A DNA stretch of 63,780 nucleotides, from contig NZ_FUYC01000013.1 in the NCBI RefSeq assembly GCF_900167125.1, positions 1 to 63,780 of the forward strand, written 5' to 3'. The stretch comes from Paucidesulfovibrio gracilis DSM 16080. GTDB lineage: Bacteria > Desulfobacterota > Desulfovibrionia > Desulfovibrionales > Desulfovibrionaceae. Numbering within the stretch: the stretch's first letter is position 1; every line of letters begins with the position of its first letter. Below the pieces are notes generated by a model, which saw nothing but the letters and a program-made list of their open reading frames with translations, ran no database searches and was not told the origin of the DNA. Positions 4,663-9,972 of the stretch are shown one piece after another. A program made the translations under genes and the position numbers.

Positions 4663-7600
4663 CTACAACGGCTGGTCCAAGCCGCAAAGCGGGTCATTGG
4701 GATCGCAGGGCGCTCCCGCCCCCGGTTCCGGTGCATCCTGGCAACTGATGGCCGTGTACCCCCGGCAGTTGCTCTTGGTTCCGCCCGCATTCTTGGTTTG
4801 ACAAACCACCTGCCCCTGGGAATCCACCAGGGATCCCTGCCAGTTCTGCACATTCCCCTGCGGCTGGGAAGGTGCCGGAGCCTTGCCGAGATCCGCACAG
4901 AACCGCGCCGGAACCTTGCCGTCCAGTGCGGAAGTAACCTGTCCGTTCAGCTTGACATAGCGATAGGTACGGTACGGCCCGTCCCGGCCCGAGGAAGAAT
5001 AGGTCCATTCCAGCGGCCCGGGCGAGTCATCCTGCGAGTCCGCGTCTTCCGGTTCGCATCCGGGATCCCCGGGTTCGCAAGGCGGATCCTCCACCTCACA
5101 GGTGATGGACATATACACGTTGCAGGTTCCCCCGTCCGAGTCTCCCGGGCGACACATGACCTTGCCGCCCAGGTCGATGGTTTCTCCGTTGGTCCAGCCC
5201 ACAAAGGGCGCGTTCTGGCTCTTGGCGGGCCTGCCGCCCACGCTGGAGCAAAACCGGGTCACCACGCGCAGCTTGTTGGCCTGGGTGAAGCCGAACCCCA
5301 CAATGCCCTCTTCCGGATCCCGGATTCCCGGGGAATGGTATTGGTAGACATTGGGTTCAATCTGCACTTTTTCCGCGTACACGATTTCACCGCCCACCGT
5401 GGCCAGGGTCTGGCCCGATCCATCGGTGTCGTCCTGCGGCTCGGGCGGCGGCTCCTTGCGCAACGTCAGGATGATTTGCCGTGTGGCGCCGCCTTGGGCT
5501 GAAACAGTGACATTCTTAGATGCTGCAACATACTGATCCGCATCCGCTTCCACCGTATAGAAACCTTCCGTTACGTTATCGAACACTACGCTGCCGCCCT
5601 GCTGCATGCCAAAGGGCTTGGCATTGCGCGTGACCACGACCCTGGCACCGGAAATGGTGCCGCCCTCTTCATTGCGCACACGCACCTGGAGCGACGTGAA
5701 CGGCGCGGCCAGTTGCAACCGAAGCGTCTGCGTGGTTCCATCGGACAGCCGCACCTCGCGCTCCAGCCGACCAGAGCCTGCATCGGACTCCGCAGTGAAC
5801 ACATGCTTCCCGGGCCGGACGCCTTCAAACCGCGCCGCGCCGGTGGGAGCGGCCTGTTCGTTTTCTCCATCCAGCTTGACGCGGGCACCGGCCACGGGTG
5901 ACCCGTCCGGTCCCAGCACCATGACCCGCACATCCACACCACTCCGCGGCGACAGCCGCACCTTGTGCATTGGTTCCTCTATGGTGACGATAACTTCACG
6001 ATCTTCCCCGGCCGGAAAATCGCGTGCTTCCGCGTGGAGATAGTACGCACCCAGGGCAAGATCCTGGAGCCGCACGTACCCATTGGCATCCGCCGCATGG
6101 CGCCGGGTCTCCCCGTCCGGTCCCTGCACCACCACCACGGACCCGGCAGGAACACGGCTTTGCGCATCGCGCACCACGGCCAAAATCCCTCCGGAAACCA
6201 CAAACCGCAGAATATGCTCCAACGGCTCCGGGTCCGGTCCGCTCGGCCTGAGCTGGACATTGCCCGTGGCGGGCGGCAGTTCGGAATACACCGCGCTCAC
6301 GGTCCAGCCCTCCGGCGGAGACGGCGGCATCCCCTCAAACAACGCCACCCCGTCTTGCCCGCTCACGCGCCGCACATCAGCCATGCGCACCTCGGCTCCG
6401 GCCAGCGGAGCGCCGTCCAGCCCGAGCACGGTCACCGCCACATCGGTGCGCCACGGTTCCAGCCCAAGGGTCAGCGGAGCGTCGTCCCGCGGCTCCGGGT
6501 CCAGGGCCACGTCCCGGAAGTCCCCGGGTTCATGTCCCTCGGCCTGGGCCTCAATACGCACAATAGACCCGGCAGGCACCTGCCGGAATACGGCTCTGCC
6601 GTCGTCCCCTGTCAGGGCGGTGAGGGAGGTTCCGGGCAAACGCAGGGTCAACCTTGCTCCGGCCACTGGCGGACCGGCGCTACCGTCCGGGTCGCCCGAT
6701 CGGACCAGTACGGCATAATCCTTGGGCGGAAGCGGCTTGAGCACCACTTCATATTCCTCCGGCGAGGTGTCGCCCTTTGCCGGCGGCTGGGAAAAAATAC
6801 GGATGGTCTCCGGGGCGTATCCCGTGGCCCGGGCCTGCACATCATGCCCGCCGTCCGGCAGGTGCAGCCCAGCCAGACCATAGCGGTTCGTGCCGCAGGG
6901 CTTGTTGCCATTGGTCTCCATGGAGCAGAGTTTGCCGTCCACGTACAGCGCCGCCCCCTCCAGAGGAACACTGTCGCCCTGTGGCGTGATTCCCTTGACC
7001 GTGACGAGCCGCACCCGGGAAAAAGCCGCGAACTGCACGGCCTCACGCTCCAGCACGGCACGAGCCACAGCAGCCCGCTCCCGGAGCACCCGGTCCGCCA
7101 GCTCCTGCTGGTAGCGCATGCGGAAGGTGTGGCCGATGTGTTCCAAGGCCTCTTCCCGCAACTTTTTGCCCATGTCCATGCGCTTCATCCGCTCGAACAA
7201 AGCGCGAATTTCCTGCTCCACGGCCCGCTCGTCCGATGCGGTCAGCGGCGTGTATCCGGTGCTATCCTTGTACTTTCGCTGGCGCATATCCCTGGAGCTG
7301 ATCTCCGCCATGATGTCCACCATGTGCTTCTCATACCCCTGGACGAATCCGGCCTTGATTTCGATCCGGCTGGAAATATCTTTTTGCAGGGTAAAGGCGC
7401 GGCCATAATACTCCTTGCCGGGTTCGGCCTGGATGTGAATGACGCGCCCGGCAGCCTTGCCCGTGGCAGTACGGGAAGCCTTGGCAAAGTGCTCTGCGTC
7501 GAACTTCACGTCCTCGTACACGCCCGGGTCCACGCCATGGCGCTTCATGACCACGCGCAAGGCCACATCCGCTACCACGGGTTCGGGAATATGCGTCAGA

Positions 7601-8151
7601 TTCCAGGCTGCCTCGTGCTCGAAAGTTCCCGCGCCCAGGCGGTGACTCTTGTAGACGTCATAAAACGTATCCGCCAGACCGGGGATAAAAACCCGGTCCC
7701 GGAAAAACTTCAGGGATTCATTGTAAAGGGTGAACAGGGTGTTCACCGTGGCCAGGGGCATGTATCCGGCCTTTTCATACTCCGAGGCCAGATAGCCCAA
7801 GCCGAAATCCACGATGGTCTTGAGCGCCTTATGGTAGCGTAACGGGTCGGACGGCCCGCTTGTGAGCGTATCCACAAGCACCATCACCGTCAGCGCGTTT
7901 TTAAAATGATCCGCACTGTCCGGCAGACTCTTTTCAAACGAAGTCCAGAGTTTGTAGCTCTGATCCACGGCGTCCACCCCAAGCTGGGTGTATTTGGCCG
8001 CGTCCGCCAGGGTCACGTCCCGGCTAAAGACCGTATCCCCCTTGCGCAGAACAACCTGCTGCGCCTGGCACGGCGTGGCGGCACAGGCAATGCCCAAAAT
8101 AAACAAGGCCGTCAGCAGCCAACATCTTTTGCTTTTCGACCAATGATTCAC
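4663..8151 (-). CDS. Large exported multi-domain protein with repeated beta-sandwich modules
   Basis: The start is GTG 8151, supported by GGAGGG nine bases upstream. A signal peptide follows (cleavage near residue 30, after CQA). About 340 residues are mainly helical and charged, and not assigned to a family. Then come roughly six tandem modules (about 370-930) of the carboxypeptidase regulatory-like type, each with the pattern G-x-P-[LV]-x-G-A-x-V, a G-x-x-x-F turn and a closing strand. The C-terminal ~230 residues carry two copies of a Cys-containing unit (RFCSSVGGRPA and RFCADLGKAPA) and acidic, Cys-rich linkers such as CEPGDPGCEPED. The 1162-residue protein is probably periplasmic or surface-exposed and adhesive or structural. 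It lies directly upstream of the FecR-domain gene. Confidence 0.75.
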   Translation of the reverse strand: MNHWSKSKRCWLLTALFILGIACAATPCQAQQVVLRKGDTVFSRDVTLADAAKYTQLGVDAVDQSYKLWTSFEKSLPDSADHFKNALTVMVLVDTLTSGPSDPLRYHKALKTIVDFGLGYLASEYEKAGYMPLATVNTLFTLYNESLKFFRDRVFIPGLADTFYDVYKSHRLGAGTFEHEAAWNLTHIPEPVVADVALRVVMKRHGVDPGVYEDVKFDAEHFAKASRTATGKAAGRVIHIQAEPGKEYYGRAFTLQKDISSRIEIKAGFVQGYEKHMVDIMAEISSRDMRQRKYKDSTGYTPLTASDERAVEQEIRALFERMKRMDMGKKLREEALEHIGHTFRMRYQQELADRVLRERAAVARAVLEREAVQFAAFSRVRLVTVKGITPQGDSVPLEGAALYVDGKLCSMETNGNKPCGTNRYGLAGLHLPDGGHDVQARATGYAPETIRIFSQPPAKGDTSPEEYEVVLKPLPPKDYAVLVRSGDPDGSAGPPVAGARLTLRLPGTSLTALTGDDGRAVFRQVPAGSIVRIEAQAEGHEPGDFRDVALDPEPRDDAPLTLGLEPWRTDVAVTVLGLDGAPLAGAEVRMADVRRVSGQDGVALFEGMPPSPPEGWTVSAVYSELPPATGNVQLRPSGPDPEPLEHILRFVVSGGILAVVRDAQSRVPAGSVVVVQGPDGETRRHAADANGYVRLQDLALGAYYLHAEARDFPAGEDREVIVTIEEPMHKVRLSPRSGVDVRVMVLGPDGSPVAGARVKLDGENEQAAPTGAARFEGVRPGKHVFTAESDAGSGRLEREVRLSDGTTQTLRLQLAAPFTSLQVRVRNEEGGTISGARVVVTRNAKPFGMQQGGSVVFDNVTEGFYTVEADADQYVAASKNVTVSAQGGATRQIILTLRKEPPPEPQDDTDGSGQTLATVGGEIVYAEKVQIEPNVYQYHSPGIRDPEEGIVGFGFTQANKLRVVTRFCSSVGGRPAKSQNAPFVGWTNGETIDLGGKVMCRPGDSDGGTCNVYMSITCEVEDPPCEPGDPGCEPEDADSQDDSPGPLEWTYSSSGRDGPYRTYRYVKLNGQVTSALDGKVPARFCADLGKAPAPSQPQGNVQNWQGSLVDSQGQVVCQTKNAGGTKSNCRGYTAISCQDAPEPGAGAPCDPNDPLCGLDQPL

Positions 8152-8335: not shown

Positions 8336-8980
8336 TCATGGGGAAAAACCGGATGCGGACTCCTTTTCGGCCATGGATTCCAAAAGGGCCAGTCCGGAAG
8401 TGATGTCCAGCACAGCTCGCTCCAGGGCGGGCAAATGCTCACGGGGGAGGGTGAGTTGATACTCCGCGTCCGCGCCGTACTGCTCCGCCGTGATTTGCGC
8501 TTCAAACTCGGGCAAAAGCCGCTGCACCGCATCCGCGTGCTCATAGGCGAGGATCACGCGCAGGGTCACGGTGTCCACCTTTTCCCGGCAGGGCAGATCC
8601 TCAAGGACCATCCGGGTCAGATCCGAATAGGCCCGAACCAGTCCCCCGGTGCCGAGTTTGATTCCCCCGAAGTACCGGGTCACCACCACGACCACTTCGC
8701 CAACATCGCCATGCAGCAGCACGTTGAGCATGGGTCGTCCTGCCGTGCCGTGCGGCTCTCCATCGTCGCTCTGCCCGATATGCGCGCTGTCGCCGGGCGG
8801 TCCCGCGGCAAAGGCCCAGCAATTGTGTGTGGCGTCGGCATGGCGTTCCCGCACGGATGCGATAAACGCTTTGGCCTGTTCCTGGTCCGGGGCATGCGCG
8901 GCCGTGGCCAAAAACCGGCTTCGCCGGATGGTCAGCTCCACCTGATGGGGTTGGGAAGGAATGCGATATCGACCGTTCAT
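8336..8980 (-). CDS. YigZ/IMPACT family protein
   Basis: ATG 8980 is taken because MNGRYRIP is the usual beginning of this family; an in-frame GTG at 8989 is possible. The 214-residue protein has the N-terminal UPF0029/IMPACT domain with SRFLATAAHAPD, THNCWAF, DDGEPHGTAGRPML and TRYFGGIKLGTGGLVRAY, then a C-terminal ferredoxin-like DUF1949 domain. The family is widely conserved; E. coli YigZ binds nucleic acid and eukaryotic IMPACT inhibits the GCN2 kinase, but the bacterial role is unsettled. The gene lies 45 bp downstream of the CULT-domain gene in the same orientation. Confidence 0.9.
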   Translation of the reverse strand: MNGRYRIPSQPHQVELTIRRSRFLATAAHAPDQEQAKAFIASVRERHADATHNCWAFAAGPPGDSAHIGQSDDGEPHGTAGRPMLNVLLHGDVGEVVVVVTRYFGGIKLGTGGLVRAYSDLTRMVLEDLPCREKVDTVTLRVILAYEHADAVQRLLPEFEAQITAEQYGADAEYQLTLPREHLPALERAVLDITSGLALLESMAEKESASGFSP

Positions 8981-9025
8981 GCCCGGCACGTAGCCCCCGG
9001 GTGCGTTCCGGTCAACCGCGGGGAA

Positions 9026-9466
9026 TCACTCACCGTCCTGTTCCCGGAGCTTTCCGGGCAATAGACCGTAAAACCCGCCACCGGAACGGGCCGTGAACCG
9101 CCAGCCCAGATGCTCGCCGCATCGGGCGCAGAGCATGATCTGCCATTCATGCCCGGGAAACCAGCTGAATTCGGAATACCGTTCCCCTTCGGGCGTCAGG
9201 CCCGTGGCCAGGGAAAAACAGCCCACTTCAAAGACCACGCCATGCGGATTGCAGAACACATGCATATGCTTGCCATCCACACGGCAACGGGCTTCAGGGC
9301 GCGTCACGGCCTGATCACACAGGGCGCAGCACAGAACTCGCCCCGAAAACCCTTCCAGCTCCGCATCGGTCCCGGTTTCGGGGCATTCGGCCCGCTTTCC
9401 CCTGACCAAAGGCAGGCCCGGCCTCGGCTTGAGATCCGCCAATCCCGGCCTCTCCGTCGGCATCAT
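9026..9466 (-). CDS. Bacterial cereblon-type CULT-domain protein
   Basis: ATG 9466 (or GTG 9469) follows a strong AGGAGG. The 146-residue protein has a short N-terminal arm and a CULT domain (about 42-141). Zinc ligands are C47-x2-C50 and C113-x2-C116. Trp102, Trp108, Trp122 and Phe124 have the spacing of the thalidomide-binding cage of human cereblon (W380, W386, W400, F402) and of the Magnetospirillum protein MsCI4. Conserved segments include FNP-like FCNPHG, CFSLATGL, FSWFPG and HLGW. There is no Lon or DDB1-binding part. The natural ligand of bacterial CULT proteins is not known; cyclic imides and uracil-like compounds bind MsCI4. It may be co-transcribed with the YigZ-family gene downstream. 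Confidence 0.88.
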   Translation of the reverse strand: MMPTERPGLADLKPRPGLPLVRGKRAECPETGTDAELEGFSGRVLCCALCDQAVTRPEARCRVDGKHMHVFCNPHGVVFEVGCFSLATGLTPEGERYSEFSWFPGHEWQIMLCARCGEHLGWRFTARSGGGFYGLLPGKLREQDGE

Positions 9467-9630: not shown

Positions 9631-9972
9631 ATGCCCGATACCAACCGCCACACCGCGCGTCTGCGCCTCTGCGACGCTTGTTGCGACAAGGCCGGCATCC
9701 TTAAGGAAATGGTCAAAACCGGGGGGTGCACCTGCGATGTCTGCGGTTTCGCGTGCAAATGCTGCGGCTCCGATCCCGAAGCCCGAGGCAAGCAATACAT
9801 CAACAATATTGCGGTTCACGTCATACCACAAAGCGCCTGGGCGGTGCTGCAGGAACGCAACCAGCGCAGTTTGCAGCCAATGGACTGGCAACGCCTCTTT
9901 GCTGAAGGGCGTTCCCATTCGCAGGAAGCCCACGAGCTGGATGGGACCAACAAGAAGAATAGCATGCGATAG
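9631..9972 (+). CDS. Small cysteine-rich protein of unknown function
   Basis: ATG 9631 gives 113 residues; an in-frame GTG at 9625 is nearer to the GGAG at 9610-9613, so the start is uncertain. Third codon positions are strongly G/C, as in neighbouring real genes. The N-terminal half holds eight Cys in LCDACC, CTCDVC and CKCCG, which could bind one or two zinc ions or an iron-sulphur cluster. The C-terminal half is polar, with WAVLQERNQRS and DWQRLFAEG. No family is recognised. It is transcribed away from the CULT gene. Confidence 0.55.
   Translation: MPDTNRHTARLRLCDACCDKAGILKEMVKTGGCTCDVCGFACKCCGSDPEARGKQYINNIAVHVIPQSAWAVLQERNQRSLQPMDWQRLFAEGRSHSQEAHELDGTNKKNSMR

Follow-up and report, generated by a model that had tools for sequence, protein, structure and literature searches.

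A single-domain cereblon-type (CULT) protein of Paucidesulfovibrio gracilis, and cage, tail and gene neighborhood variation among its bacterial relatives

Background

The CULT family, to which the thalidomide-binding domain of human cereblon belongs, was described in 2015 with a bacterial group drawn mainly from the delta-proteobacteria, a member from Desulfonatronospira already among those listed, and that description speaks of the bacterial proteins as a CULT domain only (PMC4287342). Its bacterial members include MsCI4 (cereblon isoform 4, MGR_0879) of Magnetospirillum gryphiswaldense, which responds to thalidomide and uridine and whose pocket unfolds on ligand release; this pocket is not exclusive to imides, accommodating uridine and, in one crystal form, a DMSO molecule (PMC4449219). 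For cereblon itself the natural mark is reported to be a cyclized C-terminal imide (PMC11821526, PMC11974815), and PDB entry 9nr3 carries the title CRBN with GLUL-cN. Bacterial CULT proteins have been known for a decade, many crystal structures of the family already exist, and the protein described below adds one more sequence. We know of no bacterial ligand or phenotype of CULT, and our literature search found no paper on its bacterial function, ligand or phenotype.

An ordinary bacterial CULT protein

The window analyzed here, a 63,780-nucleotide stretch of Paucidesulfovibrio gracilis DSM 16080, encodes on its minus strand (9026..9466) a cereblon-type protein of 146 residues, counted from an ATG that is preceded by the Shine-Dalgarno-like GAGGAGG with 10 nt between; an alternative TTG start would give 182 residues. 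An N-terminal tail (approximately residues 1-42; 9341..9466, minus strand), modeled with low confidence and holding at most a weak version of the peptide discussed below, is followed by the CULT domain proper (approximately residues 43-145; 9032..9340, minus strand). As read from the sequence, the domain has the two cysteine pairs of a putative zinc site, C47xxC50 and C113xxC116, the aromatic cage W102-x5-W108-x13-W122-x-F124, and the NPxG hairpin motif N73-P74-x-G76, which we take to be the same as the tip motif of PMC4287342. N73, P74, G76 and the three cage tryptophans are kept in 59/59 rows of alignment A3, whose rows were taken mostly from 71 candidates and chosen to contain the first cage Trp.

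Homology searches place the protein firmly. Against solved structures, phmmer returned MsCI4 at E-values of 1.7e-24 to 1e-22 (8 distinct sequences, 4v32 at 1.7e-24) and cereblon chains at 7e-14 to 3e-12, and with such values neither match can be put down to chance. The Pfam profile Yippee-Mis18 (PF03226) matched over 22 residues at 19.4 bits, below its curated cut-off of 26.6, and NCBIfam gave nothing credible, so that a better match to some other zinc-binding family, which we considered, was not found in either collection. Nor did the Pfam scan match an SspB domain (PF04386) or a LON domain, which sets the protein apart from cereblon proper (LON-CULT). The nearest titled record, from a Desulfovibrio sp. 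metagenome-assembled genome (JAQVYA010000011.1), is 73% identical over the CULT domain, and the source genome (3.18 Mb in 53 contigs) has this single CULT match.

An AlphaFold2 model built from 59 aligned rows has pLDDT block means of 89-98 from residue 41 on and 49-69 over residues 1-40, and its predicted fold is the beta-tent. Foldseek and VIA-align both place the model with MsCI4 and human cereblon: VIA-align superposes it on MsCI4 with Z 19.3 (1.1 A over 103 residues) and on human cereblon (9ngt) with Z 17.5 (1.2 A over 104 residues, 33% identity). The sequence-only reading, which had called this a stand-alone bacterial CULT protein, is therefore borne out by phmmer, Pfam, the residues themselves, the model and its superposition. 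The cage spacing and both cysteine pairs are exactly as it gave them; between CULT and the Yippee-like family, phmmer favors MsCI4 and cereblon; and the loss of the fold, which might have spoken against the family assignment, is not seen in the model, where the fold is kept and superposes on MsCI4. We conclude that the window protein is an ordinary chromosomal single-domain member of the known CULT family, presumably located in the cytosol.

CULT genes are carried by a minority of genomes: 49 of 149, and later 86 of 288, genomes of the bacterial family, and 39 of 395 in a draw from the phylum. Absences in the whole-genome searches (A1, A4) are not certain, since only the first 12 to 17 candidates per genome were scored. 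A scan of named genomes confirmed 283 stretches, and titles among the best 80 that were kept include Acanthopleuribacter and Sulfidibacter, both of which we take to be Acidobacteriota, as well as Gammaproteobacteria, Spirochaetes and Nitrospirae. No CULT gene was found in phage or plasmid collections, and none of 7 pattern matches in viral contigs was confirmed. Because the pattern used for the named-genome scan, [ED]F[TS]WF.., demands the first cage Trp, cage-loss forms elsewhere would be missed. Together with row selection (A1 left out copies with a degenerate cage), this pattern makes the invariance of the first Trp in alignments A1, A3 and A5 partly a matter of choice; A5 has 57 rows, adds rows outside the 71 candidates, and holds L106 twice with two starts.

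The base of the cage, and paralogs with a degenerate cage

Merging identical domains reduced 171 CULT matches to 159 unique bacterial domains, of which 90 have the cage WWWF, 54 WWWY, 2 WWWW, and 13 have lost the first Trp. On a tree of 122 domains at most 75% alike, in which 65 of the 119 inner branches are unresolved, the Phe/Tyr state would require at least 24 changes. Moreover, the substitution Y101F has already been made and crystallized in MsCI4 (4v32), where the Tyr hydroxyl is reported to raise affinity and leave the binding mode unchanged (PMC8900816). These counts, the tree and the MsCI4 precedent lead us to reject Phe124 as the distinguishing human-type feature for which it had been taken, Phe being the commonest state in the bacterial set collected here. 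The all-Trp cage (GWIWSG, with Trp at the Phe/Tyr site) is found at L041:5569-6123 and L074:5585-6319, both on the plus strand.

In one genus (g25), CULT genes form tandem arrays of up to three, usually one canonical copy with one or two degenerate ones (L031:5277-7086, L050:5403-7076, L105:5746-7717, and loci L057, L068, L069, L075, L092 and L156); named records that contain degenerate copies bear the titles Solidesulfovibrio or Desulfovibrio sp. In this genus the additional copies lack both the first Trp of the cage and the NP of the hairpin motif; of the 13 domains without the first cage Trp, 10 have His at the Phe/Tyr position. Lone degenerate copies were also seen (genomes G096 and G079; loci L048 and L049). 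The 6 degenerate rows on the tree form one group with support 99, implying one change. Such natural cage-loss paralogs offer a way to test the bacterial function of the thalidomide pocket.

A recurrent peptide in the N-terminal tail

Across relatives, the tail tends to carry two hydrophobic residues followed by Arg or Lys, often with Pro after 1-3 further residues. Among 104 tails (taken from domains no more than 70% alike, at least 92 residues long, with the first cage Trp present), [LFCIVM][LFC][RK] occurs in 56, whereas 500 shuffles gave 8.3 on average and never more than 17; the form with Pro occurs in 36, compared with a shuffle maximum of 8; in all, the three patterns match 52, 56 and 36 of the 104 tails against shuffle maxima of 14, 17 and 8, figures to be read knowing that the patterns were written after viewing the tails and that every shuffle control ignores shared ancestry. 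Position is also shared, 32 of 61 matches ending 24-27 residues before the profile start, or about 25 before the CULT domain, and in several short CULT proteins the motif begins at the initiator Met. In EM motif searches the first motif reached a log-likelihood ratio of 257.6 (119-140 in 8 shuffled sets) and, once it was masked, a weaker acidic and Pro-rich second signal reached 157.5 (111-130 in 6 shuffled sets); a search 10 residues wide scored 296 (156-179 in 12 shuffled sets) and assigned a site in 104/104 rows, many of them unconvincing, so that we rely on the stricter pattern counts.

Strong motifs are found, for example, at L115:161-190 and in the tails of L063, L066, L136 and L180. The window protein has at most a weak version, LPLVRGKRA, which the strict pattern does not match, and no clear motif was seen in two relatives from the same genus. 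Of 8 tails from other phyla, 5 lack a match, including 3 of 4 gammaproteobacterial and 2 of 2 acidobacterial tails; of the 3 that do match, L147 owes its match to the start MFK alone. In human cereblon the N-terminal extension lies folded along the pocket (PMC4449219), and we considered whether the bacterial tail might dock on its own domain in the same style. AlphaFold2 monomer predictions for the window protein and L115 (pLDDT in the latter 53 over residues 1-10, 41 over 11-20) leave the tail undocked, and on this weak evidence we set intramolecular docking aside.

Neighboring genes

The gene next downstream of CULT, on the same strand after a gap of 37, encodes a YigZ/IMPACT-family protein (8336..8989, minus strand), and from the short gap we infer that the two are co-transcribed. 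The neighbor pointed out by the sequence-only reading is therefore real in the window; as a conserved link it does not hold beyond one clade. Of 148 loci, 13 have YigZ after CULT in the same orientation; every one of them comes from a Desulfovibrionaceae-type genome or record, and at 7 of the 13 another ORF intervenes (HD-domain-like or periplasmic-binding-like by eye), which together make the arrangement a clade trait. Further downstream, and as an observation apart, a 1162-aa protein (4663-8151, minus strand) has five CarboxypepD_reg repeat matches and, by eye, a signal-like start. No broadly conserved CULT neighbor was found: the largest cluster, a PAS/sensor-like ORF by eye, covers 17 of the 148 loci, in a comparison where neighbor ORFs were called mechanically, antisense ORFs count among the clusters, contig ends truncate several loci, and loci from the phylum draw extend only about 1.5 kb to each side.

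Divergent from CULT lies a gene for a small Cys-rich protein (9631..9972, plus strand) that has no credible match in Pfam or NCBIfam and is undescribed. Its relatives (L054:6497-6784, L189, L190, L191, L192 and L193, among others) are proteins of about 80-115 residues with an invariant core, LCDxCCD...KTGGCTCDxCGxxCxC, in the 15 rows of alignment A4. The gene occurs in 30 of 288 genomes of the bacterial family, all 30 of them among the 86 CULT carriers; by our reading of the coordinates the two genes are head-to-head within 1 kb in 25 of these genomes, and in the other 5 (G031, G027, G024, G015 and G055) they are both present and unlinked, lying elsewhere or on another contig. The genome-level figure for this association, 2.7e-18, is inflated by kinship; counted by genus it is 6/6 vs 20/44 (hypergeometric 0.0055), in a test made after the link had been noticed. 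In the phylum draw (395 genomes, few of the bacterial family), the only match was in the window's own genome. Absent from 56 of 86 CULT genomes and present in 1 of 395, the Cys-rich gene cannot explain the general role of CULT.

What the pocket may do in bacteria

By analogy with cereblon, bacterial CULT may be a reader of cyclic-imide protein ends, a proposal that we make tentatively, putting its chances a little below even. The tryptophan cage would bind glutarimide-type cyclic imides and uracil-like rings, and the pocket would fold partly on binding, both as extrapolated from MsCI4; the ends read would be those left on damaged or cleaved proteins, if human cereblon is a guide; and the bound end might then be handed to a partner, candidates being the small Cys-rich protein that co-occurs with CULT or a binder of the tail peptide found in the family at large. 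Common descent of the pocket makes a reader of cyclic imides, or of rings like them, the best-supported reading. Counting against it are the non-exclusive pocket of MsCI4, the lack of a broad neighbor and the at best weak tail peptide of the window protein; moreover, in passing from a class of ligand to a function the argument borrows from a eukaryotic ubiquitin system. The same pocket could instead serve as a small-molecule sensor, in which the cage binds a free metabolite (uracil, uridine, dihydrouracil or hydantoin) and pocket folding switches the interaction with a partner; MsCI4 binds both uracil and uridine (PMC4287342, PMC4449219), and the authors of PMC4287342 expect a widespread ligand. 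The binders reported so far were found by screening, however, and no pyrimidine gene was recognized among recurrent CULT neighbors, a weak objection because annotation of these was unsystematic; we rate the sensor as a possibility of perhaps one chance in a few.

Of the remaining proposals, two overlap with a reader of protein ends. SspB uses its XB peptide to bind the N-domain of ClpX (PMC3983244); by analogy, the CULT cage might capture cyclic-imide ends while the tail peptide docks on the ClpX N-domain for delivery to ClpXP. The excess of the peptide over shuffled tails (56 of 104 against at most 17), its distance of 24-27 residues from the domain in 32 of 61 matches, and the low-confidence, undocked tail of both monomer predictions would suit such an adaptor, as would a source genome that encodes the ClpX N-domain and gave no match to SspB. 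SspB's XB tail has a Leu-Arg core, which the CULT tail peptide may resemble. The shared ancestry of the tails is uncontrolled, however, and the peptide fails the strict pattern in the window protein, is unclear in two relatives of its own genus and goes unmatched in 5 of 8 tails from other phyla, with the MFK start of L147 among the rest; we consider an adaptor unlikely. Equally unlikely is a lineage-specific two-gene unit, metal or redox related, in which the cage recognizes a substrate of CULT and the Cys-rich protein together: that CULT is present in every one of the 30 genomes in which the Cys-rich gene occurs, against 86 of 288 overall, that the genes stay together in the 5 genomes where they are unlinked as well as in the 25 where they are head-to-head within 1 kb, and that the association persists by genus all speak for it, and the 56 CULT genomes in which the Cys-rich gene is missing, the inflation of the genome-level count by shared ancestry and the post hoc test speak against it. 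A functional tie to YigZ/IMPACT, and so to translation control, we regard as very improbable; the same-strand adjacency in the window and the 13 loci favor it, but YigZ was not found near CULT at 135 of 148 loci (some cut by contig ends), and another ORF lies between the two in 7 of the 13.

To return to CULT as a reader of cyclic-imide ends, its strongest form would make the bacterial protein equivalent to cereblon both in its fold and in what it does, tethering cargo through its N-terminal peptide to an AAA+ protease such as ClpXP. We hold this combination to be doubtful indeed, a shade more so than the adaptor itself; if true, damage-end quality control by the cereblon pocket would exist without ubiquitin. 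Whichever reading is preferred, the peptide in the tail, the co-occurring Cys-rich gene and the paralogs without an intact cage are new handles on the bacterial role of the thalidomide pocket.

Comparison with known systems

Among described proteins, Yippee/Mis18 (PF03226) are beta-tent relatives (PMC4287342) to which the window protein has a weak 22-residue match, but it falls below the cut-off of that family, and its cage and sequence assign it to CULT. SspB-type ClpXP adaptors are comparable only in how they might work, since the wider CULT family likewise combines a folded binding domain for a putative substrate with a disordered linker and a terminal peptide; the domains are unrelated, the peptide is N-terminal in CULT and C-terminal in SspB, and any protease link for CULT is conjectural. 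With the thalidomide-binding domain of human cereblon the window protein shares all four cage residues, Phe included, and a closely similar predicted fold (Z 17.5), although it has no LON domain, DDB1-binding region or ubiquitin system. The closest likeness is to MsCI4, from which it differs in having Phe rather than Tyr at the base of the cage and, by alignment, a longer tail (the domain starting near residue 43, vs about 20 in MsCI4), and with which it shares a single CULT domain, two CxxC pairs, the three-Trp cage, about 40% identity and a predicted fold that deviates by 1.1 A across 103 residues.
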